From an uncultured Lachnospiraceae bacterium (GTDB lineage: Bacteria > Bacillota > Clostridia > Lachnospirales > Lachnospiraceae): DNA of 64,000 nucleotides. The notes under the pieces are model-generated. The model did not search any database, was not told the origin of the DNA, and saw only the letters and a list, made by a program, of their open reading frames with translations. Below are positions 6,478-43,671 of the stretch, piece after piece; the first letter of the stretch is position 1; each line of letters starts with the position of its first letter. The DNA is taken from the NCBI GenBank assembly GCA_902762955.1, contig CACWQH010000001.1, positions 43,483 to 107,482 of the forward strand, read 5' to 3'. The translations under genes and the position numbers were made by a program.

Positions 6478-6550
6478 GACAGTATATAAAAATGTACTCG
6501 CATGGCACGTGTTACTTAACGCCATGCTTAGCACATTTTTATATACTGTC
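6478..6550 (+). repeat. Intergenic hairpin repeat, copy 1 (core GCATGGC-14 nt-GCCATGC)
   Basis: A perfect 18-bp outer stem (6478-6495 with 6533-6550) encloses an asymmetric internal loop (ACTC against TTAGC), a 7-bp stem GCATGGC/GCCATGC and the 14-nt loop ACGTGTTACTTAAC (6507-6520). It sits between inverted REP-like palindromes, downstream of cheV and upstream of the aminotransferase gene. Four further copies occur in this window; only the core is shared, while the outer stem differs in each yet stays paired. Confidence 0.85.
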
Positions 6551-6565
6551 TATTTGGTTAAAAAA

Positions 6566-6597
6566 GCGTGTCACAGAGAACCGTCTCCGTGACACAC
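6566..6597. repeat. REP-like palindrome, right copy of an inverted pair
   Basis: GTGTCAC and GTGACAC arms around AGAGAACCGTCTCC. The loop is the reverse complement of the left copy's loop except at two bases, so the two copies form a REPIN-like inverted pair around hairpin repeat copy 1. Confidence 0.7.
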
Positions 6598-6621
6598 CCA
6601 AGATACACTCTGTTAAAAAAA

Positions 6622-7536
6622 TTATTTTTCATATATACTGCTGCCGATAAGGTGGTCAAGTACACTTACGAGTTTTCCGATCTCCGGCTTGCTAATCTGC
6701 TCATTTGCTCCAAGCAGATTGCCCTTTCTCTTCATATCATCATTTATAAGTGATGAGAATATTACTATAGGAAGATGCTTTAAGCCCTCGGTTTCTCTGA
6801 TAAGCTTTATAAGATGATGACCATCCATAAGAGGCATTTCTATATCCGTTATGACACATTTAACACCATAGTCTACACCATTATTTTTCTTAAGCTCTGA
6901 AAGGAAGTCCCAAGCCTCCTGACCGTTATTTTTAACTGTAAGCTTGGTATATCCTGCCATGGTTAAGGAATCCTTGATAAGCTGGCACAGCATAAGTGAG
7001 TCCTCAACGATAAGAATAGGTATCTCATTTCTTTCTCTTTCCCCGAGTGCCTCAAGCTGTGATACCTTAAGGCTTGTCTCAGGACATATCTCCTCAACTA
7101 TTCTCTCAAAGTCAAGGATTATCAAAAGATTGTTTTGCTTTTTGATAATACCCGTAGCCACGCCCGAACCCGGTCCGCTGACTGATGCATCCGGTTTAAC
7201 AACGTCTGTCCATGAAACTCTGTTTATTCCAAGAACTGCCTCAACGTCAAAGGCAATATTGAGATTGTTAAAATTAGTTACTATAAAGAAATTGTTTTTC
7301 TTATCTTCATTCTCAAATCCAAGAGCTGCAAATAAGTCGATTACAGTAATGATATCCTCTCTTGGCATAAATATTCCTTCAATGCACGGATGTGAATTCG
7401 GAATAGGAGTAACCTCCTGATATGTAAGAATTTCACGTACCTTCTCAACGTTAATTCCATAATGGTTTCCCCTTATAACAAATTCCAAAACCTCCAGCTC
7501 ATTTGTTCCGCTTTCCAATAAAATGTTTGTATCCAT
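6622..7536 (-). CDS. cheV: Chemotaxis coupling protein CheV (CheW domain plus receiver)
   Basis: A 304-residue cytosolic protein that couples chemoreceptors to CheA and adapts through a phosphorylatable receiver. Residues 1-165 form a CheW-like domain (EVLEFVIRGNHYGINVEKV, then a P-NSHPCIEGIF segment). Residues 172-300 form a receiver with ED at 178-179, phospho-acceptor Asp 231 in VITDIEMPLMDG, a Ser in IVIFSSL and Lys in QISKPE, all intact. The ATG at 7536 has GGGAGG 7 nt upstream. It follows the lipoprotein gene by 22 nt and is likely co-transcribed with it. Its presence implies a chemotactic, probably flagellated cell, though no flagellar genes lie here. Confidence 0.93.
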   Translation of the reverse strand: MDTNILLESGTNELEVLEFVIRGNHYGINVEKVREILTYQEVTPIPNSHPCIEGIFMPREDIITVIDLFAALGFENEDKKNNFFIVTNFNNLNIAFDVEAVLGINRVSWTDVVKPDASVSGPGSGVATGIIKKQNNLLIILDFERIVEEICPETSLKVSQLEALGERERNEIPILIVEDSLMLCQLIKDSLTMAGYTKLTVKNNGQEAWDFLSELKKNNGVDYGVKCVITDIEMPLMDGHHLIKLIRETEGLKHLPIVIFSSLINDDMKRKGNLLGANEQISKPEIGKLVSVLDHLIGSSIYEK

Positions 7537-7558
7537 ATGCTAACCTCCCTGCATTATA

Positions 7559-8362
7559 TTAATCTAAATCAATTATCGTGCTGTTATTATTGCTGTCAGT
7601 AACTCTAAGCTTTAAGCTGTCATTACCTATCTCCTCCGCAACCGAATCAGATACCTGGAACAAAAGCACAACCTCTTCAAACATATTGCCTTGTACCGTT
7701 CCCTGATAGGTATACAGATCATCTATCAATATGGTAAGCATCTGCTTGGCAGATTTACTGTCATTTACTATTATACTATACTCTAAATCCTTACTGTACA
7801 AATCCACATACTGATCATCGCCGGTCTTATTTTCCATATTGAATTTAAGAACCAGAAGCTTATATCCGCTTGGTGCTTCGATGGTAATCGCTACTCCATC
7901 ATGATCCATGGACGGATACTCTTCAGCTATCATATAGTATGAATACTTGACCGAAACCTCATTGATACCTGCAAAAGCGGCTATATCAAAGCTCTTATCT
8001 GCTGTTTTACCGGATAAATCCACATTATCCGTTTCAGCCTGCGTAGTTGCCGGGGCCTGCGTGGTTTCTGTTGTATCCTCCGTTACCACAGCTTCGGTAG
8101 TTACTTCCTCAGTGGCTTCAGTAACAGCTTCGGTAGTGGTTATCTCCTCACTTGATGGCTCGGCAATTTCCGTGGTAGCTGCTCTGTCTTTTTCATCCAG
8201 ATAATACTTGGTATCGATATTTCTGTCATACTTGATTAAAAGCTCAGCAGCATACTCAGCTACCAGATACTGCTCCTCATCAGTAAGTTCAATAGTTTTT
8301 GTACAGCCTGTAATGCAAAATATCATTACAAAAATGCAAACTATTGCTATATTTTTTTTCAT
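7559..8362 (-). CDS. Predicted lipoprotein with Thr/Glu-rich linker
   Basis: A 267-residue protein not assigned to a named family. It begins with a lipoprotein signal (MKKNIAIVCIFVMIF, lipobox ITGC with the lipidated Cys near residue 20). A short helical region follows, then a low-complexity linker rich in Thr, Glu and Ala (about 70-115), then a C-terminal beta-rich domain of about 145 residues resembling extracellular immunoglobulin-like DUF4352-type domains (VLKFNMENKTGDDQYVDLY). It is expected on the outer face of the membrane. The ATG at 8362 is preceded by GGAGG at 6 nt; a GTG 15 bases upstream overlaps that site. It has its own promoter (8402-8430), and cheV follows closely. Confidence 0.75.
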   Translation of the reverse strand: MKKNIAIVCIFVMIFCITGCTKTIELTDEEQYLVAEYAAELLIKYDRNIDTKYYLDEKDRAATTEIAEPSSEEITTTEAVTEATEEVTTEAVVTEDTTETTQAPATTQAETDNVDLSGKTADKSFDIAAFAGINEVSVKYSYYMIAEEYPSMDHDGVAITIEAPSGYKLLVLKFNMENKTGDDQYVDLYSKDLEYSIIVNDSKSAKQMLTILIDDLYTYQGTVQGNMFEEVVLLFQVSDSVAEEIGNDSLKLRVTDSNNNSTIIDLD

Positions 8363-8401
8363 TATATTCCTCCGCACATACTAAAATGTACAACCTATAA
8401 T

Positions 8402-8430
8402 ATTTTACCACTTTTTTTTAATATCAGCAA
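8402..8430 (-). promoter_or_regulatory. Sigma-A-type promoter for lipoprotein-cheV
   Basis: Minus strand: TTGCTG, 17 nt, TAAAAT. The -35 hexamer overlaps the end of the sensor kinase gene; the start codon at 8362 follows after a short leader. Confidence 0.6.
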
Positions 8431-9902
8431 GGCATATTAACATCTAAATCAAAATAAAATACAACTCCATCCTCCACGTTGTAAACACCGTACTCCTTGC
8501 CATGCGCCTGCATAGTTGCGGCAACTATGGATAAACCGATTCCGTTTCCGCCGTATTCCCTGCTTCTTGATTTGTCTGATTTATAAAATTTTATAAAAAG
8601 CTTATCTATATCCTCATCTGCAATCTGATTGCCCTGATTATACACACAAAGTCTTATGGAATCTTCCTTTCGTTCCAAAAATATTCTTATTGTCCCACCT
8701 TCGGATACATAATGAATTGCATTTGTAAGATAATTGGTAAAGGCCTCTTCTATCATGAATTCATCTGCCCATACAAAAACAGGCTCTTTTTCCTCAAACT
8801 GTATCCTTACATTCCCCTCATTTGTGAGAATTTTCGTAGAATTAAGGACCCCTGATATAAGCTCAACAACATCAAATCTTTCTATCTTGATATTGAAATT
8901 ACCAAATTCGATTTCATTAAGAGTTATGAGCTTTTGAACCAGTTGATTCATCTTCTTGGACTCATCGATAATTACATCCGAATAAAACTCCATATTTTCC
9001 TTGTCATCAAAAAGATTGTCCTTTAAGCCCTCTGCATAACCCTGTATAAGTGCTATAGGAGTTTTTAGTTCATGGGAAATATGCGACAAAAATTCCTTAC
9101 GCATATCGTCTATCTTTCGTTTTTCCTCTATATCCTTTTCCAGCTCTATATTGGCTGTTTTCAACTGTGAAATAGTATCCTCAAGTTTTGATGAAAGCTC
9201 ATTCATACATTCACCGAGCTCTCCTATCTCATCCTTTGTATATACGTTAACCTTAGAATCAAAATCAAGATTAGCCATTCGTCTTGCAGAATGGCTGAGT
9301 TTCTTTATCGGTGTTGTAAATATGCTGCTTAAGAAAAGAACAAATACTGCGGAAAAGATAATAAGCACTGCCGCAATATAATTAAATACCCTTTTTACGG
9401 TATCAACAAAGGACTCAACTTCAGATATAGGACTCCTTATGATAACAGAAAAACCGTTATCCAGCTTTCCTACCAGATCATAATAGTCCGAATTAATTGT
9501 ATCATCATGGTTTCTTTGGATTATATATTCTGAATTATTAAGATATCTGCCTTCTTCGGCTTCAATAACAGAATCAATAATTCGATAAAGACTCTGTATC
9601 ATCTTGCCGTTATCGTTAATTGAAGTATAATAAATCCTGTTATCCTCTATGTCAATTATAAGAACTATAGCCCCTGCCGGATTTTTGATTTTACCATACA
9701 AATCATCAACTTCAATATCATCCGGTGTATTGTCATTGAAAAGTCTGTTGCAGGAATTATAGGTTGTAATCATATTGGATTTTAGTTTATTTAAAAAGAT
9801 TCTTTCAATAGCAACATTACATACTATCCATGAAGCTGCCACGATAAACGAAGCAAATATTACTACCATCAAAGTAATTTTCATTCTCATAGAAATCTTC
9901 AT
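8424..9902 (-). CDS. Membrane sensor histidine kinase (two-component system)
   Basis: A 492-residue sensor kinase. Two membrane helices (about 10-32 and 175-197) flank an extracytoplasmic sensor of about 140 residues. A HAMP domain follows (TPIKKLSHSARRMANLDF, about 198-250), then the dimerisation domain with phospho-accepting His 277 (HISHELKTPIALIQGYAEG), and an ATPase domain with N box NYLTNAIHY and G2 box GNGIGLSI. The G1 region is NQGNQIADEDI, a form seen in VanS/CssS-like kinases. The ATG at 9902 lies 6 nt after the response regulator stop and uses a site inside that gene's end (GAGGTG), so the pair is translationally linked. The signal sensed is unknown. Confidence 0.92.
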   Translation of the reverse strand: MKISMRMKITLMVVIFASFIVAASWIVCNVAIERIFLNKLKSNMITTYNSCNRLFNDNTPDDIEVDDLYGKIKNPAGAIVLIIDIEDNRIYYTSINDNGKMIQSLYRIIDSVIEAEEGRYLNNSEYIIQRNHDDTINSDYYDLVGKLDNGFSVIIRSPISEVESFVDTVKRVFNYIAAVLIIFSAVFVLFLSSIFTTPIKKLSHSARRMANLDFDSKVNVYTKDEIGELGECMNELSSKLEDTISQLKTANIELEKDIEEKRKIDDMRKEFLSHISHELKTPIALIQGYAEGLKDNLFDDKENMEFYSDVIIDESKKMNQLVQKLITLNEIEFGNFNIKIERFDVVELISGVLNSTKILTNEGNVRIQFEEKEPVFVWADEFMIEEAFTNYLTNAIHYVSEGGTIRIFLERKEDSIRLCVYNQGNQIADEDIDKLFIKFYKSDKSRSREYGGNGIGLSIVAATMQAHGKEYGVYNVEDGVVFYFDLDVNMPC

Positions 9903-9908
9903 GTCAGA

Positions 9909-10583
9909 CTACACCTCGAATTTATATCCCATTCCCCATATTGTTTTAATATATTCACCCTTAGTTCCAAGCTTACTTCTTAATTTTTTAACATGGGTAT
10001 CAATGGTTCTTGCATCACCAAAATAATCATAATTCCATACATTGTTTAAAATCTTCTCTCTGGAAAGAGCAACTCCGCGATTTACCAGGAAATAATTTAA
10101 CAGTTCAAACTCCTTGTAGCTTAACTCTATAGGATTCCCGTCAACCTTAACCTGATGAGCGGATATGTTCATCTCTATGCCATCTGCAGTAAGAATTTCC
10201 TCCTTCTCTGCACTTTCACTTCTTCTGAGCACCGCACCTACTCTGGCGACAAGAATCTTTGGTGAAAATGGTTTTGTAATGTATTCGTCTATTCCAAGCT
10301 CAAAACCTCTAAGCTCATCCTTTTCATCGCTTTTTGCGGTAAGCATAATAATCGGCACGTCAGAAACTCTTCTAATCTCCTCTGCCACTCCGTAACCGTC
10401 CAGCTTTGGCATCATTACATCAAGAATAATAAGTGCTATCTCTTTGGTTGACATAAATATATCTACAGCCTGTTCACCATCTGCTGCCTCAATAACAGAA
10501 TAATTGCTTTTTATCAAAAAGTCCTTAACAAGCTTTCTCATTCTGCTCTCATCATCCACAACAAGTATTTTTAAATTATCCAT
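9909..10583 (-). CDS. OmpR-family response regulator
   Basis: A 224-residue DNA-binding regulator paired with the kinase that follows. The receiver (1-120) has VVDDE, phospho-acceptor Asp 55 in LIILDVMMPKLDG, Thr in IIMLTAKSDEKDE and Lys in YITKPFSP. The C-terminal winged helix (about 128-224) contains the recognition region LSREKILNNVWNYDYFGDARTIDTHVKKLR (written here only as a span), typical of the OmpR/PhoB group. The ATG at 10583 is preceded by GGAGG at 8 nt; an upstream TTG at 10610 would start before that site. A TATAAT on the minus strand just upstream (about 10609-10625) suggests a promoter, but I see no good -35. Confidence 0.93.
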   Translation of the reverse strand: MDNLKILVVDDESRMRKLVKDFLIKSNYSVIEAADGEQAVDIFMSTKEIALIILDVMMPKLDGYGVAEEIRRVSDVPIIMLTAKSDEKDELRGFELGIDEYITKPFSPKILVARVGAVLRRSESAEKEEILTADGIEMNISAHQVKVDGNPIELSYKEFELLNYFLVNRGVALSREKILNNVWNYDYFGDARTIDTHVKKLRSKLGTKGEYIKTIWGMGYKFEV

Positions 10584-10658
10584 ACAAATCGCCTCCAAAA
10601 TTCGAATCAATAATTTAATTATACATAGATATTATGTTGAAAATGTGAAATCATACAA

Positions 10659-11255
10659 TTAATTATTTGTTTCCGAATTAAAAAGCTCCTGTTCTCTCAA
10701 ATCAAGCTCATATTCTCTTTGACCGAGCTCGTCCTCCCAGCTTTCAAGCCTTTCTTCCCATGCAGCATACTTATTTAATATTTTTTCTTCGGTATTAAAA
10801 TATCCTATATTTTTATTGGTTGCCATAATATAAAACATACCGGCAATGATAATTGCGAGGGATATAACTGCAATCTGCAAAACCTTCTTGGTTCTTTTCA
10901 GCTTGCTGTATTCGCTTCTTAACTTTTTATATTTCTCGGATGAAATCTCCGGATGCTTTTCATTTATAACTTCAGGAACCTTTACAACATTGGTTCGTTC
11001 CACGCTGATAAGCGGAAGACTTTCATCATTTGTTTTTTCAACAAGATATTCTCTCATTTCCTGCAAAAATGCATAGCCTATAGGTGTTGAAAAATAATTC
11101 TTTGATGATAACTTCAGATAAAGTTTTTTCATCCCCTGTAAATCATCAAAAGAAATCGTCCCCTTTAATTTACATATATTAAAGTACTCTTTTTTAGCTT
11201 TATTTGCTTCCCGGATATCTTCAAAATAATATCCTTCTACAATATGTTCGTCCAT
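10659..11255 (-). CDS. Single-pass membrane protein of unknown function
   Basis: A 198-residue protein that I do not recognise. The N-terminal 100 residues are soluble and mixed alpha (MDEHIVEGYYFEDIREANKA onward). Residues 104-124 are strongly basic and helical, followed by one membrane helix (about 125-144), then a charged, Glu/Trp-rich coiled-coil tail (AAWEERLESWEDELGQRE). With no signal peptide, the N-terminal domain is probably cytoplasmic. The ATG at 11255 has AGGGG about 8 nt upstream. It lies between a lipoprotein gene and the two-component system; nothing ties its function to either. Confidence 0.7.
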   Translation of the reverse strand: MDEHIVEGYYFEDIREANKAKKEYFNICKLKGTISFDDLQGMKKLYLKLSSKNYFSTPIGYAFLQEMREYLVEKTNDESLPLISVERTNVVKVPEVINEKHPEISSEKYKKLRSEYSKLKRTKKVLQIAVISLAIIIAGMFYIMATNKNIGYFNTEEKILNKYAAWEERLESWEDELGQREYELDLREQELFNSETNN

Positions 11256-11289
11256 AAGTAATCCCCTCTCGGCGGTTTAAAGATATGAT

Positions 11290-11322
11290 AAACGGCAGCA
11301 GTCATTCTAACTGTTGCCGTTT
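11290..11322 (-). terminator. Hairpin between lipoprotein and membrane-protein genes
   Basis: Stem AAACGGCA/TGCCGTTT, one mismatch, then CAGT/ACTG with a 7-nt loop. It lies just after the stop of the 188-residue lipoprotein gene. No clear U-run follows on the minus strand, so it may be a processing or stabilising hairpin, not a complete intrinsic terminator. Confidence 0.45.
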
Positions 11323-11349
11323 CATAAATTAGTCTTTATATGCACAAAT

Positions 11350-11916
11350 CTAAGGTGTTGCATCTGTTTCTGAAGAAACATCCTCATTAAAACTTCCGTT
11401 TATTACAATGTCATTATCCAAAGCCAAGGTTCTAAGCTGTGTCTGATACTGCAAAATCAAGTCCTCGGATTCCTTGATTAGCGAGTCTGCTTCAGTAAGA
11501 TAATCCGGATTTTCTTCGTTGATTGCTGCAGCCACCTTATTCATGGCATCGAGTTGCTTTTGTGCACTCTGAAGATATAAATCCTTTAAATTCTTAACTT
11601 CATCAGTAGACACTTCTATAGCAGTAAGACTATTTATATAATTTTGCATCTGCGGAATGGCAGTGCCCTGAAGGTCAGAAGAAAACTGCTCAAGATTCAC
11701 ATCATCAGTTTCAAAATATGAATTATAAATTGCAATCGCATTTTCTCTGTCACCTTCTATAGCAGGAAGCTTGTTATTGACAAATTCAACGATATCATCC
11801 TTTAAAGCACTGTTTGAATTATCGTCTGCTGCTTCCTCCTTTTTCTTTCCACAGCCTGTAAAAAGACAAAGTATAAAAGTCATAATTGCAATTATATAAA
11901 ATTTCTTTTTCATCAT
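11350..11916 (-). CDS. Predicted lipoprotein, helical
   Basis: A 188-residue lipoprotein of unknown role. The signal is MMKKKFYIIAIMTFILCLFTGC with the lipobox LFTGC, written here as its motif end; a charged KKKEEAADDN linker follows. The rest is predicted helical, about 140 residues rich in Gln, Asn, Glu and Leu, with pattern similar to extracellular four-helix lipoproteins. The ATG at 11916 has GGAGG at 5 nt; the adjacent ATG at 11913 is equally possible. It has its own good promoter at 11950-11978. The last residues are a disordered Ser/Thr/Glu tail. Confidence 0.75.
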   Translation of the reverse strand: MMKKKFYIIAIMTFILCLFTGCGKKKEEAADDNSNSALKDDIVEFVNNKLPAIEGDRENAIAIYNSYFETDDVNLEQFSSDLQGTAIPQMQNYINSLTAIEVSTDEVKNLKDLYLQSAQKQLDAMNKVAAAINEENPDYLTEADSLIKESEDLILQYQTQLRTLALDNDIVINGSFNEDVSSETDATP

Positions 11917-11949
11917 ATTATCCTCCATATGTTGTATCATGACCAGTTT

Positions 11950-11978
11950 ATTGTACCACAATTAGTTTATTCAGGCAA
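11950..11978 (-). promoter_or_regulatory. Sigma-A-type promoter for the 188-residue lipoprotein
   Basis: Minus strand: TTGCCT, 17 nt, TACAAT, about 35 bases before the start codon at 11916. Confidence 0.65.
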
Positions 11979-12012
11979 GTATATAGAACCTATTATTTGA
12001 TTAACTTATATC

Positions 12013-13239: not shown

Positions 13240-13256
13240 AAAATCTCCTTAAATAA

Positions 13257-13286: not shown

Positions 13287-13301
13287 AGTCATAAAACAGA
13301 A

Positions 13302-13529: not shown

Positions 13530-13546
13530 TACGATACCTCCCTCGA

Positions 13547-15640: not shown

Positions 15641-15654
15641 ACAAAGCACCACCC

Positions 15655-15744: not shown

Positions 15745-15840
15745 GTATGACTTTCACAAGCACGATTTTCAGGTACACGCATGGCACGTGCTACTTAACG
15801 CCATGCTTAGCACCTAAAATCGTGCTTGTGAAAGTCATAC
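15745..15840 (+). repeat. Intergenic hairpin repeat, copy 2
   Basis: A perfect 25-bp outer stem (15745-15769 with 15816-15840), one bulged C, AGGT/ACCT, internal loop ACAC against TTAGC, then GCATGGC/GCCATGC with loop ACGTGCTACTTAAC (15786-15799). It lies in a divergent gap between ylxM and the SpoIID-like gene, so it cannot serve only as a terminator. Confidence 0.87.
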
Positions 15841-21358: not shown

Positions 21359-21506
21359 GTGTGTCATGGGGCGTAAGCCTTGTCACATATATCAGACTGT
21401 ATGAGAAAAATGCGCAAAGCATGGCGTTAAGTAACACGTGCCATGCGTGCGCATTTTTTCATACAGTAAAAAATATATAGTAAATCTGACAAGGTGCCTG
21501 TCACAT
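21359..21506. repeat. Partly degenerate outer palindromes around hairpin repeat copy 3
   Basis: Segments 21359-21388 (GTGTGTCA ... TTGTCACAT) and 21485-21506 (TCTGACAAGGTGCCTGTCACAT) flank hairpin copy 3. They share TGTCACAT ends, and GCCTTGTCA is the near reverse complement of TGACAAGGTGC. The arrangement mirrors the REP-like pair around copy 1, but with diverged sequence. Confidence 0.5.
21396..21467 (-). repeat. Intergenic hairpin repeat, copy 3 (reverse orientation)
   Basis: Read on the minus strand: outer stem ACTGTATGA..TGCGC paired over about 19 bp with one bulge, internal loop AC against TTT, then GCATGGC, loop ACGTGTTACTTAAC, GCCATGC. It lies between convergent genes. The outer stem resembles that of copy 5. 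Confidence 0.85.
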
Positions 21507-23347: not shown

Positions 23348-25042
23348 TTACTCACCTGTAATTACGTTTGCACTATACTGTGACAAAGCATCTATATATT
23401 CCTGTCCGTCATAACTCATGATTTGATATGCCGTATCCTCAGTTATACCAAATGTTGTCCCCAATGCGTTTATGATATTGCTTCTACACAAATTAATATC
23501 ATCTACAATTTCAAGCTCAACTGCCTCATCATAATGCTCATCATACTTTTCCAGACCTCTTATAAGAGAATCAAGTGCCTTATCCGGACGGTTAAGCTTC
23601 ATATTATTTTCATAGGACTCATAGAGTCTTTGGACATACATAACTGTATAAATTCTATCCTTAAGCTCCTGATCTTTTTCCTTTACTTCGACACCGGCTA
23701 CCTCATCATATGCAAGCCTGTATCTTTGTCTGTCAAAATAATCAGCAGCCTTTCTGATTACCTTCTTATAATTAAATAAATTTGTTCCAAATATAACCAC
23801 TACCGCAAGCACGGCAAATGCAGCAAAGATAATTCCGGTAAGCACCTTTGACACAGGCTTTCCGTTTTCAGCCGCTTCAATCTTAGCTTCTTCTTCAGCC
23901 GCCTCAGCCTTTGCCTTCTTCTTTTCGAGCTTCTCTGATTTTTTCTTATCATCTGTGGACTTTTTAAGCTCGAGCTTTTCGGCCTTCTTTTCTTTATTTT
24001 CTTCTTTTTTCTTAGCCTTTTCTTCCTTCTTGGCTGCCTTTTTGGCCTTAAGCTTTTCTTCCTCTTCTAATTCATCAGCATCCGGCTCCCCAAAAAGTAT
24101 CTGTGAAAGGGTTTTCTTTTCCTTGTTCTCATCCTTAGCCTTTGTCTTATCCTTGGTTTTTTTAGCCTTTTTGGCTTTTTTACCTGCTTCGGATTTAACC
24201 TCAGATATATCAGCTATATCATCAAGCGAACCAAATTCATCCAGGTCTCCCAGTGCATCTCCTGTACCGGAATCACCAAATGCCTCTCCAAGATCTGCCA
24301 AATCTCCCAGTGCATCTCCTAAAGAATCAGAACCTGTATCTGCGACATTATCCTCTACCTTACTCTCATCCTCTATACCAAGTGCTGAAAACAGGTCATC
24401 TAAATCCATTTCGTCAACCGAAAGATTTTCTGTAGTCTCACCCTGACCTGAATTTGCTTCCATAAAAGGCTCAGGTGCCGGCTCAGGTATAGGTTCAGGT
24501 TCCGGTATCGGTTCAGGCTCAGGAATCGGAGCAGGCTCAGGAATCGGAGCAGGCTCAGGAATCGGAGCAAGCTCAGGAATCGGAGCAGGCTCAGGAATCG
24601 GAGCAGGCTCAGGTTCTGGTACAGCCTCCGGATTTGATTCAACATAAGACATGAACTCCGGTTCAGGTTCACTCTTTGCTTCATCTAACATAGAATCGAA
24701 ATCCATGTCCGACAGACCATCCTCAGCTTCATCAACATCATCCGTTTCATCAAGCAATGCATCCAAAGAAAAATCCTCATCTAACGTTTCTTTAGCCTTT
24801 TTCTTTGGCTTACTGTCAAGATTGGTAATATCTATATCATCAAAATCTATATCATCAAAATCCAAATCACCCAAATCAAGATTATCCAAATCATCAAATT
24901 CATCAAAGGATAAATTTGAAAGATCCGACATATCAACATTGATGCCTGAATCCCTTTCAACCGACTCATCTATTTTTGAATTATTTTTTTTGCCATCAGA
25001 CGAAACTGTATTAAGCAGTTCATCAAGATAGTTCTCGTCCAT
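23348..25042 (-). CDS. Large repeat-rich single-pass membrane protein, unknown function
   Basis: A 564-residue protein I do not recognise. It starts [15 protein letters not shown]; residues 40-75 are an Asp-rich run of repeated [13 protein letters not shown] units; residues about 135-200 are Pro-Glu repeats of the unit PEPAPI; then an acidic region and a long Lys/Glu/Ala-rich stretch (about 290-390). One membrane helix follows (about 395-417), then an extracytoplasmic helical domain of about 145 residues with TPR-like spacing ([20 protein letters not shown]). The soluble N-terminal part should be cytoplasmic. ATG at 25042 with GGAGG at 5 nt. hisH follows after 2 nt, although no functional link is obvious. 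Confidence 0.75.
24475..24645 (-). repeat. In-frame 18-bp tandem repeat (PEPAPI units)
   Basis: About five near-exact copies of an 18-bp unit (plus strand AGGAATCGGAGCAGGCTC) at roughly 24521-24610, with degenerate units on both sides. All encode Pro-Glu-Pro-Ala-Pro-Ile in the large membrane protein. The unit length is a multiple of three, so copy-number change would keep the frame. Confidence 0.85.
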
Positions 25043-36734: not shown

Positions 36735-36739
36735 AATGT

Positions 36740-37138: not shown

Positions 37139-37165
37139 AATTAAACCTGCTTTCCCCTATGTAAA

Positions 37166-37516: not shown

Positions 37517-37549
37517 GATAATTGCCTCCTATCAAAAAATATTTATCTA

Positions 37550-37578
37550 ATTATACCCAATATTTTATGATATTGCAA
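37550..37578 (-). promoter_or_regulatory. Strong sigma-A promoter for asp23-nusB and downstream genes
   Basis: Minus strand: TTGCAA, 17 nt, TATAAT (perfect), 34 bases before the GTG start at 37516. It separates the housekeeping series from the sporulation operon upstream. Confidence 0.8.
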
Positions 37579-37612
37579 CAAAATCACATATAGAATTATC
37601 AGTTTTATTATT

Positions 37613-38254
37613 CTACTCTGCCATAGAGGTTATAACGATCTGATCGACACTGCAGCCTGTTTTTCTTACAACGATATCCTCTATCTGTGCTCTTTCAATG
37701 TCTGTAAGCTCTGTATTGCTGACAACCACGTCTACAGAGTTATCGCTTATTGACACAATTGCGTTGTCAAAGCCCTTTGCCATAAGCAGGGTTTCTGCAT
37801 CCGCTTCCTTTTCCATATCCTCTGTAAGCTTAACATATGCCGATGTTGCTTCCTGAACCACTGCTTCCTCCATACTGTCGCTGTTAATTATCTCAAGATA
37901 ATATTCCTTACTCTTTGAACGTGCCTGTTCTCTGTTAAGCTTGATATTTACAAGGCTTCCGGACACATCCGCAGAGGTAAAAACAGCCTCTCCTATATCC
38001 TCTTCGTCCGAATTAAGCTCGATATTTTCCTCACCCTCTACATCATAAAGTGTAAGCTCGCCTTCTGCCACATCAACCACGATATCCTCCTGTCCGTTTT
38101 CCGCGAAAACCTCCTCCGTAGCCTCTTTACCGTTATCCTTACTCTTTTTTCCAAGATTGACATCATTACCGGAAAAATTTATGTAACCGGCCACACCCAG
38201 CAACACTGTCAAAGCTGCTATAACCACCTGATTTTTCTTAAAAGCCTTTTTCAT
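37613..38254 (-). CDS. spoIIIAH: Stage III sporulation protein AH
   Basis: A 213-residue mother-cell protein that forms, with forespore SpoIIQ, the channel between the two compartments. Seen: one membrane helix (about 9-27), an acidic linker, and a C-terminal EscJ/YscJ-like ring domain (LNREQARSKSKEYYLEIINS, IVSISDNSVDVVVSNTELTD, IEDIVVRKTGCSVDQIVI). ATG at 38254 with AGGAGG. Last gene of the spoIIIA operon. Confidence 0.95.
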   Translation of the reverse strand: MKKAFKKNQVVIAALTVLLGVAGYINFSGNDVNLGKKSKDNGKEATEEVFAENGQEDIVVDVAEGELTLYDVEGEENIELNSDEEDIGEAVFTSADVSGSLVNIKLNREQARSKSKEYYLEIINSDSMEEAVVQEATSAYVKLTEDMEKEADAETLLMAKGFDNAIVSISDNSVDVVVSNTELTDIERAQIEDIVVRKTGCSVDQIVITSMAE

Positions 38255-38294
38255 AATAAAACCTACCTCCTGATTAATTTCTTATTGATACATC

Positions 38295-38768
38295 CTACTT
38301 TTTAATCAATACAGCTACCTTATGCGCAGGCAGATTAAAAAGTGCGCATACTGCAAATGCTATATCCGCCGCCTCATCACTCCTTACAGCTGCAACTATC
38401 AAAACGCCATCCACCTGATATTCATCCTCATATGAGGAATTACCATAAAAATCTCCCGAATCATCACGACCTTTCATGGTAACCATGATACTCATAGTAC
38501 CTTCACCATAAGATTTTTCCAAAATACCTTTAAGCTTATCCTCATAATAAGCAGCCATACTTCCGTAAGTATCAGAAGCATCTTTTTGATAATCCGAAGA
38601 AGCATCATAACTGCTGCCCTTAACCTCCGTATCGGAGGTATCCGGATAGATGCTTTTGTTTTTTACAGGCATAACTATAATAAGCAAAAGCACACCTATT
38701 AAAATAAATGTAATTAATTTGTTTGATTTACCCTTGAAAATATTAAATAAAGAATTAAGCTCCATCAT
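38295..38768 (-). CDS. spoIIIAG: Stage III sporulation protein AG
   Basis: A 157-residue protein with an N-terminal membrane helix (about 18-37) and a YscJ-like ring-forming domain (YYEDKLKGILEKSYGEGTMS, VQVDGVLIVAAVRSDEAADI-type end, HKVAVLIKK). In B. subtilis SpoIIIAG forms a 30-fold ring. ATG at 38768 lies just after the spoIIIAF stop (gap of one base), so translation is coupled; ATG at 38765 is an alternative. Confidence 0.94.
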   Translation of the reverse strand: MMELNSLFNIFKGKSNKLITFILIGVLLLIIVMPVKNKSIYPDTSDTEVKGSSYDASSDYQKDASDTYGSMAAYYEDKLKGILEKSYGEGTMSIMVTMKGRDDSGDFYGNSSYEDEYQVDGVLIVAAVRSDEAADIAFAVCALFNLPAHKVAVLIKK

Positions 38769-38769
38769 T

Positions 38770-39237
38770 TCACCGTCTTACTATATGTATACTCTCAAAA
38801 TCAGATTTATAGACATCATTAATTAAACTTTTTAAATAATTTTCATCTTCATTACTACCCACATAAACAGTTATGGAAAGTACATTATTATTTTCATCCG
38901 TTACAACCGATACATCATAAACAGCTATCCCCTCCTCCTTACATCCTTCCTTTATCGCTTCACTCAATCCAAGCTCATAATATGTATAATAGGCACCAGG
39001 CTCATTATAATTTTCCCGATTAAACGAAAGGTAACTGTCAAAGCTTTCCATAAGAGTGTCCGCATACGAATCATCAAAATTAAAAATCATAAGAACAGGT
39101 TTGGACAGTATAATAACCAAAATAAGTCCCATATAAAGAGAGATATATCTCTCATAACTCTTTCCCGGGACAAGCTTCATTACAAGCCCTGACAGGATAA
39201 GATAAATAACCAGCCCTTTCATCCACGCACTAATCAA
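38770..39237 (-). CDS. spoIIIAF: Stage III sporulation protein AF
   Basis: A 155-residue protein: two membrane helices (about 8-25 and 33-50, GLVIYLILSGLVMKLVPG, YISLYMGLILVIILSKPVL) and a ring-building-like C-terminal domain ending ESIHIVRR. It is part of the SpoIIIA-SpoIIQ feeding tube. The start is TTG at 39237 with GGGGG at 9 nt; this gives the usual ...AWMKGLVIY N-terminus, while the first ATG (39222) would leave the first helix very close to the N-terminus. Confidence 0.92.
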   Translation of the reverse strand: MISAWMKGLVIYLILSGLVMKLVPGKSYERYISLYMGLILVIILSKPVLMIFNFDDSYADTLMESFDSYLSFNRENYNEPGAYYTYYELGLSEAIKEGCKEEGIAVYDVSVVTDENNNVLSITVYVGSNEDENYLKSLINDVYKSDFESIHIVRR

Positions 39238-39283
39238 TAATACATTCCCCCGAATTTAAATTAAAAATAATTCTGAAACCTTA

Positions 39284-40567
39284 CTAATATCCTCCCGAAT
39301 TGGTTGCATAAGCCATAATAGCGATAGTAAGTACAAACAGGGTTACAGCAGAAAAAATGCATAAAAGTAAAAGCTTTATCCCCTGTGCCAAACCTTCCAG
39401 ACCTTCTATATAACGTTTTTCTCCAATGGGCTGGAGTATCACCGCAGTGACCCTTATAATCAGCATAACAAATAAGGTTTTTAATACCGGCGCACAGACA
39501 ATCAACCCTATCAGAATTATCCCCGCTATACCTATACTGTTTTTTACGACAACTCCGGCTCCCAAAAAGGTTCCTGTAAGAACCGAAATCATAGTACCTG
39601 AAGGAAGTGCGGAAACCACCTTACTTACAGCATTTTTCCCAAGCATATCAATATGCGGTTCAATCAGACTTTTAATGATATTAAGCCCTGCTATAAAAAA
39701 AATAATTGTCTTTAAAATCCAATTAACCAGACTTTCTATCAGCTTTGTAAGCTTTGAAAAATAGTCCTCTTTGTTAATATTATTTACAAGCGTTACAATA
39801 ACAAAAAACCTTATCATCGGAAGTATAATATTTAGGATAACAGACTCGACAAGCCATATACCAATCATGATAATCTCATACATAGTTGCAGCAGAGGATG
39901 CATGTCCAACAAAATTAATCGCAATAGCAAAAAACGGAATAATTAATTTGACAAGATTAAGTAAAAGCCTGATAGAATCACTAACCATATCAAGAGTTAT
40001 CATAAATGACGTAAGCAAGATTGCAGTAATTATCAGATATGTAATATAAAAACCATTTTCACTTATAAAACCGTTACCCATCGATCCGGATACATTGACA
40101 AAAACAGAGCCGATTAAAACAACTGTTATAAGCATGATCATCAGGCTTTTATTATCAGCTATCTGCCCAATTAAGGCATTTTTAATAATTATCTTAAACC
40201 TGTCTGCTATTTTCTTTGTGTCATCCTTTGATATATCCTTAATCATGTCCTTCACACTCAGTGACAGATTGATACCGCTTTTCTTTAACTCCTTGTCCAA
40301 GGTATCTAATTCAAGCCTATCATATATGTTGTCATATGCCGCGTCATCACTGTATGTAAATTGGTCATTATAATCTTGTTCATATCGTTCATTATCATCA
40401 CTATCAGGTTCTTCTTCATAATTGGCATTTTCTTTATTAATTTCATTTTTTTCCGTATTTGACTCAAAAAAATAATATCCGGGATTTGACCGGACATCGT
40501 AACTGTTAAACCCATTAATCCCTGATGATAATAATAAAAAGGCCAGTCCTACAAATCCAAGTCTCAT
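39284..40567 (-). CDS. spoIIIAE: Stage III sporulation protein AE
   Basis: A 427-residue polytopic membrane protein of the SpoIIIA complex. A signal sequence (about 1-18) precedes an acidic, Asn/Glu/Tyr-rich region (about 25-90), followed by about seven or eight membrane helices and a GDASA-like loop (MIEYEIIMIGIWLVE region). Conserved: SAATMYEIIMIG, VSALPSGTMISVLTGTFLGA, APVLKTLFVMLIIR. ATG at 40567 with GAGGTGAG. It begins 4 nt after spoIIIAD. Confidence 0.94.
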   Translation of the reverse strand: MRLGFVGLAFLLLSSGINGFNSYDVRSNPGYYFFESNTEKNEINKENANYEEEPDSDDNERYEQDYNDQFTYSDDAAYDNIYDRLELDTLDKELKKSGINLSLSVKDMIKDISKDDTKKIADRFKIIIKNALIGQIADNKSLMIMLITVVLIGSVFVNVSGSMGNGFISENGFYITYLIITAILLTSFMITLDMVSDSIRLLLNLVKLIIPFFAIAINFVGHASSAATMYEIIMIGIWLVESVILNIILPMIRFFVIVTLVNNINKEDYFSKLTKLIESLVNWILKTIIFFIAGLNIIKSLIEPHIDMLGKNAVSKVVSALPSGTMISVLTGTFLGAGVVVKNSIGIAGIILIGLIVCAPVLKTLFVMLIIRVTAVILQPIGEKRYIEGLEGLAQGIKLLLLCIFSAVTLFVLTIAIMAYATNSGGY

Positions 40568-40571
40568 GCTC

Positions 40572-40958
40572 TCACCTCATCATACTGATAATGATATCTA
40601 TAACCTGCGATAAAACAGGCATTGAAACCATGAGCATCGTAAGCTTACCCATAAGCTCAATCTGAGATGCAACCGCACCATATCCGGCATCCTTACTTAT
40701 CCCTGCAGCAAATTCACACAGATAAGCAATCCCAAGCAGCTTTAACAAAATTAAAATATAGGTCTTATCTATATCTACATTTACAGCTATATTTTTGATA
40801 CGGAAAACAATTATTTTCATTCTTTCAACACATATGGCTATAATTGAAAGACATAGTCCGAGACTTATAATACTGCTTATCTCCGGGCTCTTATTTTTAA
40901 GGCTCACCGCCAGCATAACCGCTATAATAATAAGAGCCATCAGACCACCGATATTCAT
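40572..40958 (-). CDS. spoIIIAD: Stage III sporulation protein AD
   Basis: A 128-residue membrane protein with about four helices (MNIGGLMALIIIAVMLAVSL; TYILILLKLLGIAYLCEFAA, GISKDAGYGAVASQIELMGK), a FliQ-like topology within the SpoIIIA export apparatus. ATG at 40958 with AGGTGA upstream. Confidence 0.94.
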   Translation of the reverse strand: MNIGGLMALIIIAVMLAVSLKNKSPEISSIISLGLCLSIIAICVERMKIIVFRIKNIAVNVDIDKTYILILLKLLGIAYLCEFAAGISKDAGYGAVASQIELMGKLTMLMVSMPVLSQVIDIIISMMR

Positions 40959-40991
40959 ACAGCTTTCACCTCTTTTTATATGTATAAATAC

Positions 40992-41186
40992 TCAAAAATT
41001 AAACAGACTGTTTATATCATTAAAAAGCTGATATATGTAAGGAACCACCCACGACAAAACTATAATAAGCCCGGTCAGACTGACCAGATACGCCTGGTCA
41101 TCCCGCCCCGAATGCTTTAAAACCTGATTTAACAGTGCTACCACTATTCCTACTGCCGCTATCTTAAATATAAGTGAAATCGTCAT
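40992..41186 (-). CDS. spoIIIAC: Stage III sporulation protein AC
   Basis: A 64-residue protein with two membrane helices (ISLIFKIAAVGIVVALLNQV; AYLVSLTGLIIVLSWVVPYI) and the conserved LKHSGRDDQA loop between them. ATG at 41186 with AAGGGG upstream. Confidence 0.95.
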   Translation of the reverse strand: MTISLIFKIAAVGIVVALLNQVLKHSGRDDQAYLVSLTGLIIVLSWVVPYIYQLFNDINSLFNF

Positions 41187-41198
41187 ATTATAATCCCC

Positions 41199-41765
41199 TT
41201 ATACCAAAACTATTACAACCAAAATGCCGATAACGGCACCTGATATAACCGAAATTCTCATCTTGTCTTTCAAATCAGAATTAAAATCATTTATCTTATC
41301 ATGGATATTATCAATTTCAAGCTTAAGTCCCATTTTATGAGCCTCAATATCAAGATATCCCAAAGTTTGTCCTATATGAGATATATCCTCCAAATCCTCC
41401 TTGGAAAAACATGAGGATGAAGTAAGAAGCGCGAGCGAATCCATCCAAATATCTGAGAAACTGCTTTCGTCCCTATCATCACCATCATCTATACTAAAAT
41501 CATTTAAAGTATTATAATCATAATCTATGTTGCTTTTGTCTTTGTTATCATTTAATCTCTTTACAAGATATAAAAGCCAGGACTTAAAGGGCTCGTCTGA
41601 TTTATTTGCTGCATTTAATAATGCTACACTTAAAATCGAATGCCTGTATCTTATCTCACTTTCGATATATATAAGAATTCTCTCAAATGCCTTGAGGTTT
41701 TCTCTCCTTTTATACATTTTCAAGGCATAGCTTATACCCAGAATGAGCGAGCCTCCGACAACCAT
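41199..41765 (-). CDS. spoIIIAB: Stage III sporulation protein AB
   Basis: A 188-residue protein with an N-terminal helix (VGGSLILGISYALKMYKRRE), a long helical cytoplasmic domain resembling GspF/T4P inner-membrane platform proteins (FERILIYIESEIRYRHSILS; SCFSKEDLEDISHIGQTLGY) and a C-terminal helix (ISVISGAVIGILVVIVLV). A short acidic insert (SIDDGDDRDESS, about 90-103) is unusual. ATG at 41765, 11 bases after spoIIIAA, without a clear ribosome binding site. Confidence 0.93.
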   Translation of the reverse strand: MVVGGSLILGISYALKMYKRRENLKAFERILIYIESEIRYRHSILSVALLNAANKSDEPFKSWLLYLVKRLNDNKDKSNIDYDYNTLNDFSIDDGDDRDESSFSDIWMDSLALLTSSSCFSKEDLEDISHIGQTLGYLDIEAHKMGLKLEIDNIHDKINDFNSDLKDKMRISVISGAVIGILVVIVLV

Positions 41766-41776
41766 ACATACACCGG

Positions 41777-42778
41777 CTAATTTGCACGCAAATATGACTT
41801 TAGCAATAGCTCATTTCCCCTCTCATCAAATATATTACTTACTCTACCTATATTATGCCTTTCATCATATTTATCACCGGCTTTTGCCATACTGTGTCTG
41901 CCACCCAGAACAATGTATCTTTCAAAGTTTTTTTCATCCACAAGCTTCCTTAAAACCGGCTTGGTTCTTATATCGTCAACGGAATATCCGTGTACTGTTG
42001 CAAGTATGCTGCAGCCACAGTTAATGACATAAGAGATAACATCAATGTCTTCCCTTCCTCCTATCTCATCTACAGCTATAACCTTTGGATTCATGGAACG
42101 AAGCATCATAAGCATCCCCTCGGCTTTTGGACACGCATCAAGTATATCAGTCCTTATTCCAACATCATTTTGAGGAACACCCATGTAACAGGCAGCAATC
42201 TCCGAACGTTCATCCACTACACCGACATTCATTCCCTTGCAAAGACTGCTACCATCAGAAATGCACCGTATCATATCCCTTAAAAGAGTAGTTTTACCTC
42301 CTCCCGGCGGAGATATAATAAGCGTATGAAGAACCCTTCCTTCATTATAGATATAAGGCAAGACCTCATTTGCGCAGCCATTTATCTGATGAGCTATTCT
42401 TATATTTATAAAAGAAATGTGCTTGACACTCTTTACACTTTTATTATCCATAACAGCCTGTCCCATCAGACCAACCCTGTGACCTCCGCAAATCGTTATA
42501 AAACCCTGTCTGACCTCGTCCTCATAAGCATAAAGTGAATAATTTGAAATCATATCCAATGCATAGCGTATATCCTCTGCATTTACTCTGTATGCGAGCT
42601 TTCGATTAACCGTAAAATTTCTCTTTTCACACAAAAAATACTCTCCATCAACAAAAACAAAAATAAGCGGTTCGTTAATCCTTAATCTAATCTCCGTAAG
42701 CTTTGAAAAATCTATATTAATATCTTTTATAAGACACTTAATTGATGGCGATAAAAGTTTAAAAACCTCGTTTATCAT
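41777..42778 (-). CDS. spoIIIAA: Stage III sporulation protein AA (ATPase)
   Basis: A 333-residue secretion-type ATPase of the SpoIIIA complex. Seen: LTEIRLRINEPLIF, GFITICGGHRVGLMGQAV, Walker A ISPPGGGKTTLLRD, GVVDERSEIAACYMG, Walker B PKVIAVDEIGGREDID and ILATVHGYSVDDI. ATG at 42778 is 12 nt after AGGAGG; a GTG at 42787 is only 3 nt from it, so both starts are imperfect. It begins the complete eight-gene spoIIIA operon, expressed from sigma-E in model species; I cannot place a sigma-E promoter with confidence. Confidence 0.94.
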   Translation of the reverse strand: MINEVFKLLSPSIKCLIKDINIDFSKLTEIRLRINEPLIFVFVDGEYFLCEKRNFTVNRKLAYRVNAEDIRYALDMISNYSLYAYEDEVRQGFITICGGHRVGLMGQAVMDNKSVKSVKHISFINIRIAHQINGCANEVLPYIYNEGRVLHTLIISPPGGGKTTLLRDMIRCISDGSSLCKGMNVGVVDERSEIAACYMGVPQNDVGIRTDILDACPKAEGMLMMLRSMNPKVIAVDEIGGREDIDVISYVINCGCSILATVHGYSVDDIRTKPVLRKLVDEKNFERYIVLGGRHSMAKAGDKYDERHNIGRVSNIFDERGNELLLKSYLRAN

Positions 42779-42809
42779 TTCCTTCACATACCTCCTTTAA
42801 ATTAAATAT

Positions 42810-42835
42810 ATGTAATAAACAAAAAATTATTACAT
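42810..42835. promoter_or_regulatory. Inverted repeat between spoIIIA and efp
   Basis: Perfect 9-bp arms ATGTAATAA (42810-42818) and TTATTACAT (42827-42835). It lies 32 bases upstream of spoIIIAA, in a divergent gap, and could be an operator for either gene. Confidence 0.4.
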
Positions 42836-42847
42836 TATAAAAAACAG

Positions 42848-42876
42848 TTGAAAAAAAGCTGTATTTATATTAGAAT
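42848..42876 (+). promoter_or_regulatory. Sigma-A promoter for efp
   Basis: Plus strand: TTGAAA, 17 nt, TAGAAT, about 30 bases before the start at 42907. Confidence 0.7.
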
Positions 42877-42906
42877 ATGTTATATGCGATTTTAAGGAGG
42901 AAAATT

Positions 42907-43464
42907 ATGGTTTCAGCAGGAGATTTTAAGAACGGTATAACAATTGAATTAGAAGGTAATATATACCAGATAATTGAATTTCAGCATGTAAAGCCCGGCA
43001 AGGGAGCAGCTTTCGTAAGAACAAAGCTTAAAAATATAAAAAGTGGCGGTGTTGTAGAAAAGACATTCCGTCCTACTGAAAAATTTGAAAATGCTCATAT
43101 CGACAGAAAGGATATGCAGTACTTATATCAGGATGGCGATTTATACTACTTCATGGATAGTGAAACCTATGATCAGATAGCTATAAACGCTGACGTAATC
43201 GGAGATGCCCTTAAGTTTGTTAAGGAAAATGAAAATTGTAAGATTGCTTCACACAACGGTTCAGTATTTGCAGTTGAGCCACCTATATCAGTAGACTTAC
43301 TTGTTACCGAATGTGAGCCTGGTGTTAAAGGTGATACTGCTACAGGTGCTACAAAGCCTTGTACAGTTGAAACAGGTGCTACTCTTAACGTACCACTCTT
43401 TATCAATCAGGGTGATATGATAAGAATTGACACAAGAACAGGCGAATATTCATCAAGAGCATAA
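42907..43464 (+). CDS. efp: Translation elongation factor P
   Basis: A 185-residue factor that relieves ribosome stalling at polyproline stretches. Three beta-barrel domains; the loop Lys that is modified in many species is Lys 32 in [11 protein letters not shown]. Conserved: [63 protein letters not shown] at 42907 with AAGGAGG at 6 nt. The organism encodes proline-rich repeats (the PEPAPI protein in this window), which would need EF-P for translation. Two hairpin repeats follow the gene. Confidence 0.97.
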
Positions 43465-43479
43465 TATTTCAAAGTATAA

Positions 43480-43581
43480 TAAGGAGATGGCTTTCGTTAA
43501 TATATTTTATGGTACACGCAAATCTCGCTGACGCTCACGATTTGCTTAGCACCAAAAATATATTAACGAAAGCCATCTCCT
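43480..43581 (+). repeat. Intergenic hairpin repeat, copy 4 (alternative core)
   Basis: The outer stem (from AAGGAGATGG to CCATCTCCTT) pairs over about 32 bp with one bulged A, followed by the same internal loop as copy 2 (ACAC against TTAGC). The inner 7-bp stem is GCAAATC/GATTTGC (43517-43523 with 43538-43544) and the 14-nt loop is TCGCTGACGCTCAC. Geometry equals the other copies but inner stem and loop sequences differ. It may also terminate efp: TTGTTTT follows. Confidence 0.82.
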
Positions 43582-43593
43582 TGTTTTATGGTG

Positions 43594-43671
43594 ATTATCC
43601 TGTATGAAAAAATGCGCACACATGGCACGTGTCACTTAACGCCATGCTTTGCGCATTTTTTATATAGGATA
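43594..43671 (+). repeat. Intergenic hairpin repeat, copy 5
   Basis: An outer stem of about 22 bp (TTATCCTGTATG..TGCGC with GCGCATTT..AGGATAA; one bulge, one G-T pair), internal loop AC against TTT, then ACATGGC/GCCATGC with the first pair mismatched and loop ACGTGTCACTTAAC (43626-43639). It directly follows copy 4, between convergent genes. Confidence 0.85.

Follow-up and report, generated by a model that had tools for sequence, protein, structure and literature searches.

Intergenic hairpins with a common tip and variable arms in a rumen Lachnospiraceae bacterium: a possible family of nested palindromic repeats

Hairpins in the window

The window, a 64,000-nt stretch of contig CACWQH010000001.1 from an uncultured Lachnospiraceae bacterium, contains five intergenic hairpins, designated copies 1 to 5 (Table 1). 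An apical core of about 40 nt is common to the copies, with a loop of 14-15 nt in the conserved tip. The arms vary between copies and pair within each copy.

Table 1. Hairpin copies and associated repeat arms in the window
Feature	Position	Strand	Description
Copy 1	6478..6550	+	Inner hairpin with A-type arms; core stem-loop 6500-6527
Copy 1 outer inverted repeat, left arm	6432..6464	+	Pairs with 6565-6597
Copy 1 outer inverted repeat, right arm	6565..6597	+	
Copy 2	15745..15840	+	Unique long arms, divergent junction; core stem-loop 15779-15806
Copy 3	21396..21467	-	A-type hairpin; core stem-loop 21419-21446
Copy 3 adjoining outer repeat arm, GTGTCATGGGGCGTAAGCCTTGTCACA	21361..21388	-	Partial pairing with region 21486-21506
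Copy 4	43481..43582	+	Element within terminator-like hairpin loop; core stem-loop 43518-43545
Copy 4 outer stem arms	43481-43490 and 43573-43582		Followed by T-rich 43581-43587
Copy 5	43594..43671	+	A-type hairpin; core stem-loop 43620-43647; copy 5 is also present in G012

The single layout that the initial annotation had described was found in all five hairpins. Folding gave z scores of -8.95, -13.08, -8.49, -13.03 and -8.48 for copies 1 to 5 against dinucleotide shuffles, and 0 of 200 shuffles folded as well as the copy in each of the five cases. A 20-nt pattern for the tip, with 3 mismatches at most, occurred at 4 places in the window and at none in 100 shuffles. The covariance model, at E<=0.1, recovered exactly the five listed copies within the window.

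According to simple ORF calls, copy 1 lies at a tandem gene junction, copy 2 at a divergent one, and copies 3, 4 and 5 at convergent ones. All three junction types occur among the five copies, as had been noticed before, and the view that a plain terminator role is insufficient for the family was supported. A terminator scan that considered loops of 3-8 nt only, so that hairpins with a 14-nt loop were beyond its scoring, reported short sub-stems for copies 3 and 5; copies 1, 2 and 4 yielded no hit. A search of the window against Rfam at gathering score matched one tRNA and nothing else, in agreement with the initial annotation, to which no such named family was known.

Family size, core and unit boundaries

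In the genome to which the window belongs (G000), a 26-nt pattern for the tip, again with no more than 3 mismatches, was found at 23 places, and the reversed control at none. The covariance model gave 97 matches over 62 sources, with both strands counted. These were reduced by hand to 71 places, of which 70 contained the core. The family was thus not restricted to the five copies. Only 150 of 1103 candidates were scored in the model search, and the family count is therefore a lower bound, at least 70. These results supported a single family with a common architecture. Identical elements were present at identical sites in separate assemblies, and an assembly artefact was rejected.

Many members were also found in five congeners, making six copy-rich genomes in all; the hosts form a small group of rumen gut bacteria. 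A model search with stricter filters in a sample of 299 genomes (298 genera) matched the window's own genome only and no other genus. The tip pattern had 46 matches in named genomes, three of them outside Lachnospiraceae. The inner stems of these three pair at just 4 of 7 positions, and they were therefore treated as chance matches and not as members. Neither of two tip patterns, nor the tip of a second family, had an exact match in a viral collection. The copy 2 stretch showed a mere 26-base match to phages, and the stretch with copies 4 and 5 had no match to plasmids.

There was no orientation bias with respect to genes (22 same, 22 opposite). Of 44 elements in tandem gaps, 32 lay closer to the stop on the upstream side, and 6 of the 70 places were at divergent junctions. 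L073:1066, which has no core, was left out of the junction, orientation and boundary counts, and L098:1913, beside an N gap, was also left out of the latter two.

Many copies with the same core have wholly different arms. On the other hand, certain arm types (A-type and B-type) recur with outer stems at many sites, the A-type hairpin was found inside differing outer palindromes, and a few members in G020 and G021 share a longer common inverted repeat. To define the shared unit, we compared the 64 copies in G000 that had sufficient flanking sequence and an unambiguous inner stem. Of their 2016 pairs, which are not independent of each other, 188 had inner arms in common over 14-45 nt on each side. 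The shared stretch extended equally far left and right (within 4 nt) in 148 of the 188. Beyond the shared stretch, at least 75% pairing was seen in 113 of 376 outer arms with their own partner, as against 12 of 376 for combinations of arms from different copies; the other 263 of 376 were below 75%. A symmetric boundary of the unit is a tendency.

The same sites in related species

At the copy 4 site, G029 has a plain terminator-like hairpin and no element. Both of its arms match the outer arms in G000 (1 and 9 of 2000 shuffles were as good), and G030 has the same element there. In copy 4 of G000, a terminator-like hairpin carries the element in its loop. G012 was considered as an empty site for copy 4, but G029 and G030 made a later deletion the better reading, and the argument for inverted flank copying at this site therefore falls.

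The junction of copy 1 has a terminator-like hairpin in related species, with a weaker match of the arms (63 and 59 of 2000 shuffles as good). Terminator-like hairpins also occupy the copy 3 junction in G029, G010, G030 and G004. The copy 2 element is absent at its site in G029, G009, G013, G010 and G004, and the relatives without it show only a short conserved repeat, some 20 nt off. In G030 a palindrome without the core lies beside the copy 2 site, and its right side resembles an inverted copy of the left flank.

Other sites varied in similar ways. At L043, G012 has a terminator-like hairpin and G029 another family member. Four species have four different hairpins at L052. At L076 the flanks are about 98% identical, and the arms in G029 differ. 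Some relatives have no comparable hairpin at L051, where G030 has the element too. In-place inversions were detected at L033 and L039 by alignment score and at L073_3383 by eye, and one arm at L025 was rewritten to match its partner. Arms of the relative's hairpin left no trace at copy 3 or L052, and at L043 a trace in the right arm only. No site that was compared in four species had the same hairpin in every one of them.

Elements have appeared or disappeared, flipped and become nested, and some have passed between close species, with gain and loss unpolarised by outgroups at most sites. These elements are the cause of hairpin turnover at gene ends between sister species.

Origin of the copies and divergence of the arms

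The copies are best explained, with a probability that we put at roughly 0.57, as a mobile or copied non-coding hairpin-tip element that colonises palindromes, with its arms renewed by template switching. The spreading unit would be the core of about 40 nt plus an inner arm of about 12-20 bp per side (about 60-80 nt). It would land in palindromes that were already there, entering them at the tip or dyad centre; most of these would be terminator-like hairpins or older REP-like palindromes close to gene ends. Landing inside palindromes would leave each copy on different but still self-complementary outer arms, and successive arrivals would build nested palindromes. Afterwards, template switching between the arms during replication could rewrite an arm to match its partner, flip the element or delete part of it, and the arms would otherwise drift nearly neutrally. 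We infer the direction of copying, an ssDNA or cruciform route, template switching behind the arm renewal and the moving enzyme, if any.

Several points weigh against this explanation. Only copy 4 shows the loop position clearly. Copy 2 is at a divergent junction, like 6 of the 70 places in all, and some relatives have no comparable hairpin at its site. No target-site duplication, donor and acceptor pair or mobilising enzyme was identified, and clean empty sites were few. The boundary pairs are non-independent and most outer arms stay below 75% pairing; symmetric boundaries could also result if gene conversion moved tips between hairpins already present.

SbcD scored above the cut-off in 13 of 37 genomes and in none of the six copy-rich ones (p 0.07). 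Loss of SbcCD as the basis of palindrome tolerance is at most suggestive, since 18 of the 31 other genomes also have no SbcD.

A bolder form of the mobile-tip explanation, unlikely in our estimate, would make the tip a transposase-free replicator, its core copied from tip to tip by template switching or a host single-strand recombinase. Any palindrome might then serve as a landing pad, with arms acquired and not carried. If the tip truly moves from hairpin to hairpin, the family would offer a simple system in which to study how template switching or single-strand recombination brings about spread.

REP elements associated with RAYT are short palindromes whose stem is conserved in all copies. 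REP/REPIN and BIME elements resemble the present family as bacterial intergenic palindromes near gene ends, and outer stems such as GGGGACAGG... and GACGGTTCT are presumably REP-like. Here, however, the tip is conserved and the stems differ between copies, which have the core and a short inner arm in common. Integron attC sites carry their conserved R boxes at the outer ends, a different arrangement from that seen on inspection of our hairpins, which are conserved apically and vary at their outer ends.

An ordinary MITE or REP/BIME family whose full arms are terminal inverted repeats, mobilised in trans by an encoded RAYT/Y1 or DDE transposase, is a distinctly unlikely origin. The recurrent A-type and B-type arms with their outer stems are TIR-like, and the longer inverted repeat in G020 and G021 fits it as well. 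However, the outer arms, shared within subfamilies, are unrelated in many copies with the same core, and with them any terminal repeats. The RAYT/Y1 partner proposed by the initial annotation did not materialise: the search, with the Y1_Tnp family (PF01797) alone, found nothing in G000, a genome 88.94% complete that may have contigs missing, and the control was positive in 5 of 14 named genomes.

Fungal double-hairpin elements reportedly invade intergenic regions and vary among close relatives. In sponge mtDNA, repetitive hairpin-forming elements invade intergenic regions and differ greatly between close relatives, according to the passages concerned (PMC2800124). The intergenic invasion is the same; the host is a eukaryotic organelle, and the word 'nested' is absent from PMC2800124. 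The organelle DNA of Volvox carteri is described in the relevant passages as having many short intergenic palindromic repeats, regarded as selfish and often inserted in one another to give larger compound palindromes (PMC2670323). Palindromes within palindromes were found here too (copy 4, the A-type hairpin in varied outer palindromes, and the symmetric boundaries). The Volvox repeats differ in residing in organelles and in their loops of usually 3-5 nt, and those passages draw no link to terminators; in our bacterium the unit boundary can be traced. The family resembles the selfish nested palindromes of algal organelles and can apparently lodge in the tips of other hairpins. Its best reading relative to known palindromic selfish repeats is a new variant, in a bacterium open to experiment, of palindromes inside palindromes otherwise familiar from organelles.

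Template-switch mutation makes perfect stems, homogenises arms and inverts spacers, as two papers describe (PMC8794818, PMC8604942). Terminators that grew in place by this process, with tips homogenised by gene conversion and no mobility at all, could account for the creation and repair of hairpins, the core-less palindrome in G030 and the arm rewriting at L025. We consider this improbable, to the same degree as the transposase-driven origin. Template switching is a process and not a repeat family, and alone it leaves one core at about 70 places unexplained. The core is also present where some relatives have no comparable hairpin (copy 2, L051) and where a relative's hairpin is core-less (copy 4). 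If these are gains, a donor copy from elsewhere is needed.

Among the 23 copies, two-sided change was seen in 18 of 25 pairs, above all 500 shuffles, and cells with a two-sided change numbered 47, against 11 one-sided ones in which a pair was kept. The expected covariation beyond chance was therefore present. For comparison between sister species, at least 26 of the 71 places in G000 had both flanks in the G012 stretches compared. The 26 pairs were reduced to 21 (five not alignable or with the copy absent), to 17 (minus two truncated and two inverted) and to 16.

In the arm zone of these 16 pairs in the same orientation, 17 changes broke pairing and 6 kept it (4 two-sided); over arms and outer stems, the numbers were 52 and 23. 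Outer stems diverged faster than the unpaired flanks (62/618 against 74/1374 bases, p 0.0002). Purifying selection on the long stems, as first proposed, was therefore unsupported. The earlier phrase 'compensatory change or replacement' still describes differences between copies, but changes between orthologues were mostly one-sided and pair-breaking. Since the same arms freely lose pairs between sister species, repeat copies can covary strongly even where RNA pairing is not under selection.

The inner stem and loop together diverged more slowly than the flanks (11/427 bases, p 0.02), as did the inner stem alone (5/224, p 0.045). The loop alone was not significantly slowed (6/203, p 0.17). The covariation, the near-fixed tip in 23 places and this slow divergence would follow if the family were a regulatory hairpin or structured RNA kept by purifying selection, its tip read by a host protein and its arms covarying to keep pairing. 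This is very unlikely in view of the pair-breaking changes, the fast outer stems, the loop with no significant slowing, the unbiased orientation and the lack of any compared site with one hairpin in all four species, and a slow tip is also expected if the tip alone is needed for spread. A count of 12/215, by which the loop would diverge exactly like the flanks, included L073_3383 with its inverted core and was discarded. The slower divergence of the tip may reflect a constraint on it, for example a factor that recognises it.

A large hairpin family in a narrow clade

The five intergenic hairpins that the initial annotation had described in the window were all found there (Table). Their folds had z values of -8.5 to -13.1, with 0 of 200 shuffles as good for each, and the tip GGCACGTGYYACTTAACGCC occurred four times in the window and never in 100 shuffles. 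Comparison of the window with Rfam gave a tRNA as the sole match and no family for the hairpins.

Table. Coordinates of the hairpins and associated features (L numbers are stretches or places with hairpin copies)
Stretch	Position	Feature
Window	6478-6550	Copy 1
Window	15745-15840	Copy 2
Window	21396-21467	Copy 3
Window	43481-43582	Copy 4
Window	43594-43671	Copy 5
Window	24456-24653	Tandem repeat, eighteen-base unit
L226 (G012)	2414-2579	Tandem partial duplication of left arm and core; first copy without right arm
L098	1770-1988	Two cores ~140 nt apart, with an N gap between them (possible scaffolding repeat)
L184 (G030)	~5012	Core-less palindrome at the copy-2 site
L242	3431-3620	Second-family palindrome
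L240 (G000)	6522-8813	2.3-kb stretch

The proposed family extended well beyond these copies. In the genome of the window (G000), a 26-nt tip pattern allowing three mismatches gave 23 matches, and its reversed control none. A covariance model built from 23 copies gave at least 94 matches at E<=1, both strands counted, and, across the stretches examined, at least 71 places at E<=0.1, 70 of them with the core; this is a lower bound, with 150 of 1103 candidates scored in the genome search.

Within the genus, 11 of 37 genomes matched the model at E<=0.001, and six had many matches (both strands counted: G000, 78; its sister species G012, 95; G029, 49; G030, 51; G010, 24; G001, 12). More distant members, with a similar tip and unrelated arms, were present in G009, G020 and G021; the match in G003 is doubtful as a member. 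Under stricter filters (E<=1e-4), G000 alone matched among 299 Lachnospiraceae genomes of 298 genera. The core pattern was found in 46 stretches of named genomes, 43 of them from five Lachnospiraceae MAGs (RUG13380, RUG14549, RGIG3620, RGIG4472 and UBA3820), several of which carry rumen or omasum sample names. The inner stem was paired at six or more of seven positions in 45 of 46 hits in these MAGs, and at four of seven in each of the three hits elsewhere. No copy came from exact searches of a viral collection with two tip patterns, from a comparison of one copy-2 stretch with phages, or from that of one stretch with copies 4 and 5 against plasmids. The family is large, and the clade that carries it narrow.

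The conserved tip and its boundary

The conserved part is apical, in the order ~GTACACGC, five variable paired bases, a loop of 14-15 nt of the type [AT]CG[CT]TGNC[AG]CT[TC]A(A)C, another five paired bases and GCTTAGCAC. The arms below this core, about 15 to more than 60 bp long, differed between copies and were paired within each. Many copies of one recurring arm type (A-type, tip CATGGCACGTG) were enclosed by a second, outer inverted repeat. Two arm types carried a small extra hairpin, YACGCTTCGCGTR, at one outer end only (L073, L088, L090, L094, L095, L096, L100 and L105).

When the similarity of G000 copies from different places was followed outward from the core, 188 of 2016 pairs shared inner arms of 14-45 nt on both sides, and in 148 of these the left and right stretches of similarity differed in length by no more than 4 nt. 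Past the boundary, the outer arms of different copies were unrelated. Over a span of 12 nt, a copy's own outer arms showed at least 75% pairing in 113 of 376 cases, compared with 12 of 376 for mixed combinations, in which the left and right arms came from different copies of a pair. The symmetric boundary is a tendency and no rule, because the pairs are non-independent and 263 of the 376 outer arms fell below the threshold. In copy 4, L046, L052 and L076, near-identical ATTTTATGGTACAC...TTAGCACCAAAAAT stood on four different outer stems.

The covariation proposed earlier was borne out in the 23-copy alignment, with two-sided change in 18 of 25 pairs, exceeding all 500 shuffles. The proposed selection on structure was examined in 16 orthologous G000/G012 pairs of the same orientation (L073_3383, with an inverted core, was left out). 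Unpaired flanks diverged by 5.4% (74/1374), arms by 4.1% (31/758, p 0.21 vs flanks) and outer stems, faster than flanks, by 10% (62/618, p 0.0002). One-sided changes in the arm zone broke pairs 17 times and kept them six times, and four changes were two-sided. Since most changes broke pairing, these ortholog pairs gave no sign of the long stems being kept paired, and this part of the proposal was not upheld.

For the tip, the inner 7-bp stem diverged by 2.2% (5/224, p 0.045) and the loop by 3.0% (6/203). The two pooled were slower than flanks (11/427, p 0.02), the loop alone not significantly so (p 0.17). The tip may therefore be under some constraint, or be renewed; slow divergence would also be expected of a tip needed for spreading.

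Genomic sites and turnover

The 70 places in G000 comprised 45 tandem, 13 convergent and six divergent gaps, five within small ORFs and one contig edge. In tandem gaps the core lay closer to the upstream stop in 32 of 44, and its two orientations were equally frequent (22 vs 22).

At the copy-4 site, G029 had a terminator-like hairpin and nothing more (arms AAGAGACGG and CCGTCTCTT around a loop, with a T-rich tail), and G000 and G030 had a like stem with the element within its loop. For G012, a later deletion is the best reading. Only 1/2000 and 9/2000 shuffles matched the G029 hairpin as well as the two outer arms of G000. For the copy-1 arms and the relatives' hairpin the values were 63/2000 and 59/2000, and copy 1 may be a second such case. 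Nothing of the relatives' hairpin arms was seen in G000 at copy 3 and L052, and at L043 only the right arm was.

Copy 2, in a divergent gap, was missing at that site from G029, G009, G013, G010 and G004, in which a small conserved repeat, TGTCAAG...CTTGACA, was all that lay near it; G030 had another family member there, inverted. The right side of the core-less G030 palindrome in L184 resembles an inverted version of its left flank around TGTCAAG-TATTTTTT-CTTGACA.

Related species often differed in the hairpin that occupied a given junction. At L052, a core element in G000 corresponded to a plain hairpin in G030, and G012 and G029 each had a different member of a second palindrome family. This second family consists of longer (~150 nt) nested palindromes with tip CGARCTGTTTGAGCGAAGYGAGTTYTCG and inner frame CCGATTTGYGTNAAATCA...TGATTTARCAAATTGATGG. 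The examined stretches contained 16 distinct matches with up to four mismatches (L242, L096, L129, L138, L140, L251, L280, L281, L383, L389, L392, L394, L396, L397 and L398), and the viral collection no exact match to the tip.

At L076 the flanks were ~98% identical, but arms and core bases were other in G029. At L050 G000 and G012 shared the left outer arm, with different inner hairpins, and G000 lacked the right one. L033 and L039 fitted G012 better after reversal, and the L073_3383 core was, by eye, reversed between the two genomes. At L025, clustered left-arm differences gave complementarity to the unchanged right arm, and the left arm may have been rewritten to match its partner.

Mechanism and known systems

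Template switching is described as homogenising arms and inverting spacers (PMC8604942) and as creating or repairing perfect stems (PMC8794818); the changes at these sites are of the kinds so reported. In the most economical account, a hairpin-tip unit would have been copied into the centre of palindromes, which template switching would afterwards have reshaped. We consider unlikely the bolder possibility that hairpin tips replicate without a transposase. The RAYT/Y1 partner suggested earlier was not found in G000 (89% complete), in which Y1_Tnp had no match. SbcD was above cut-off in 13 of 37 genus genomes, and the six copy-rich ones were not among these (p 0.07, confounded by kinship); its absence could ease palindrome survival.

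The nearest description found is of Volvox carteri organelles, whose short palindromic repeats, often one inserted within another, are viewed as selfish (PMC2670323). The spread of sponge mitochondrial hairpin elements (PMC2800124) resembles that of this family. The words 'nested' and 'inserted' are absent from the text of a survey of bacterial stem-loop families (PMC2267715), and no bacterial precedent was recognised in the literature searched, which took in few subscription papers.

In G012, G029 and G030, nothing at the corresponding site matched the 2.3-kb stretch of L240. This stretch ended in a core hairpin just before the repeat TTAGCACTC...GAGTGCTAA, which we take to be CIRCE-like.
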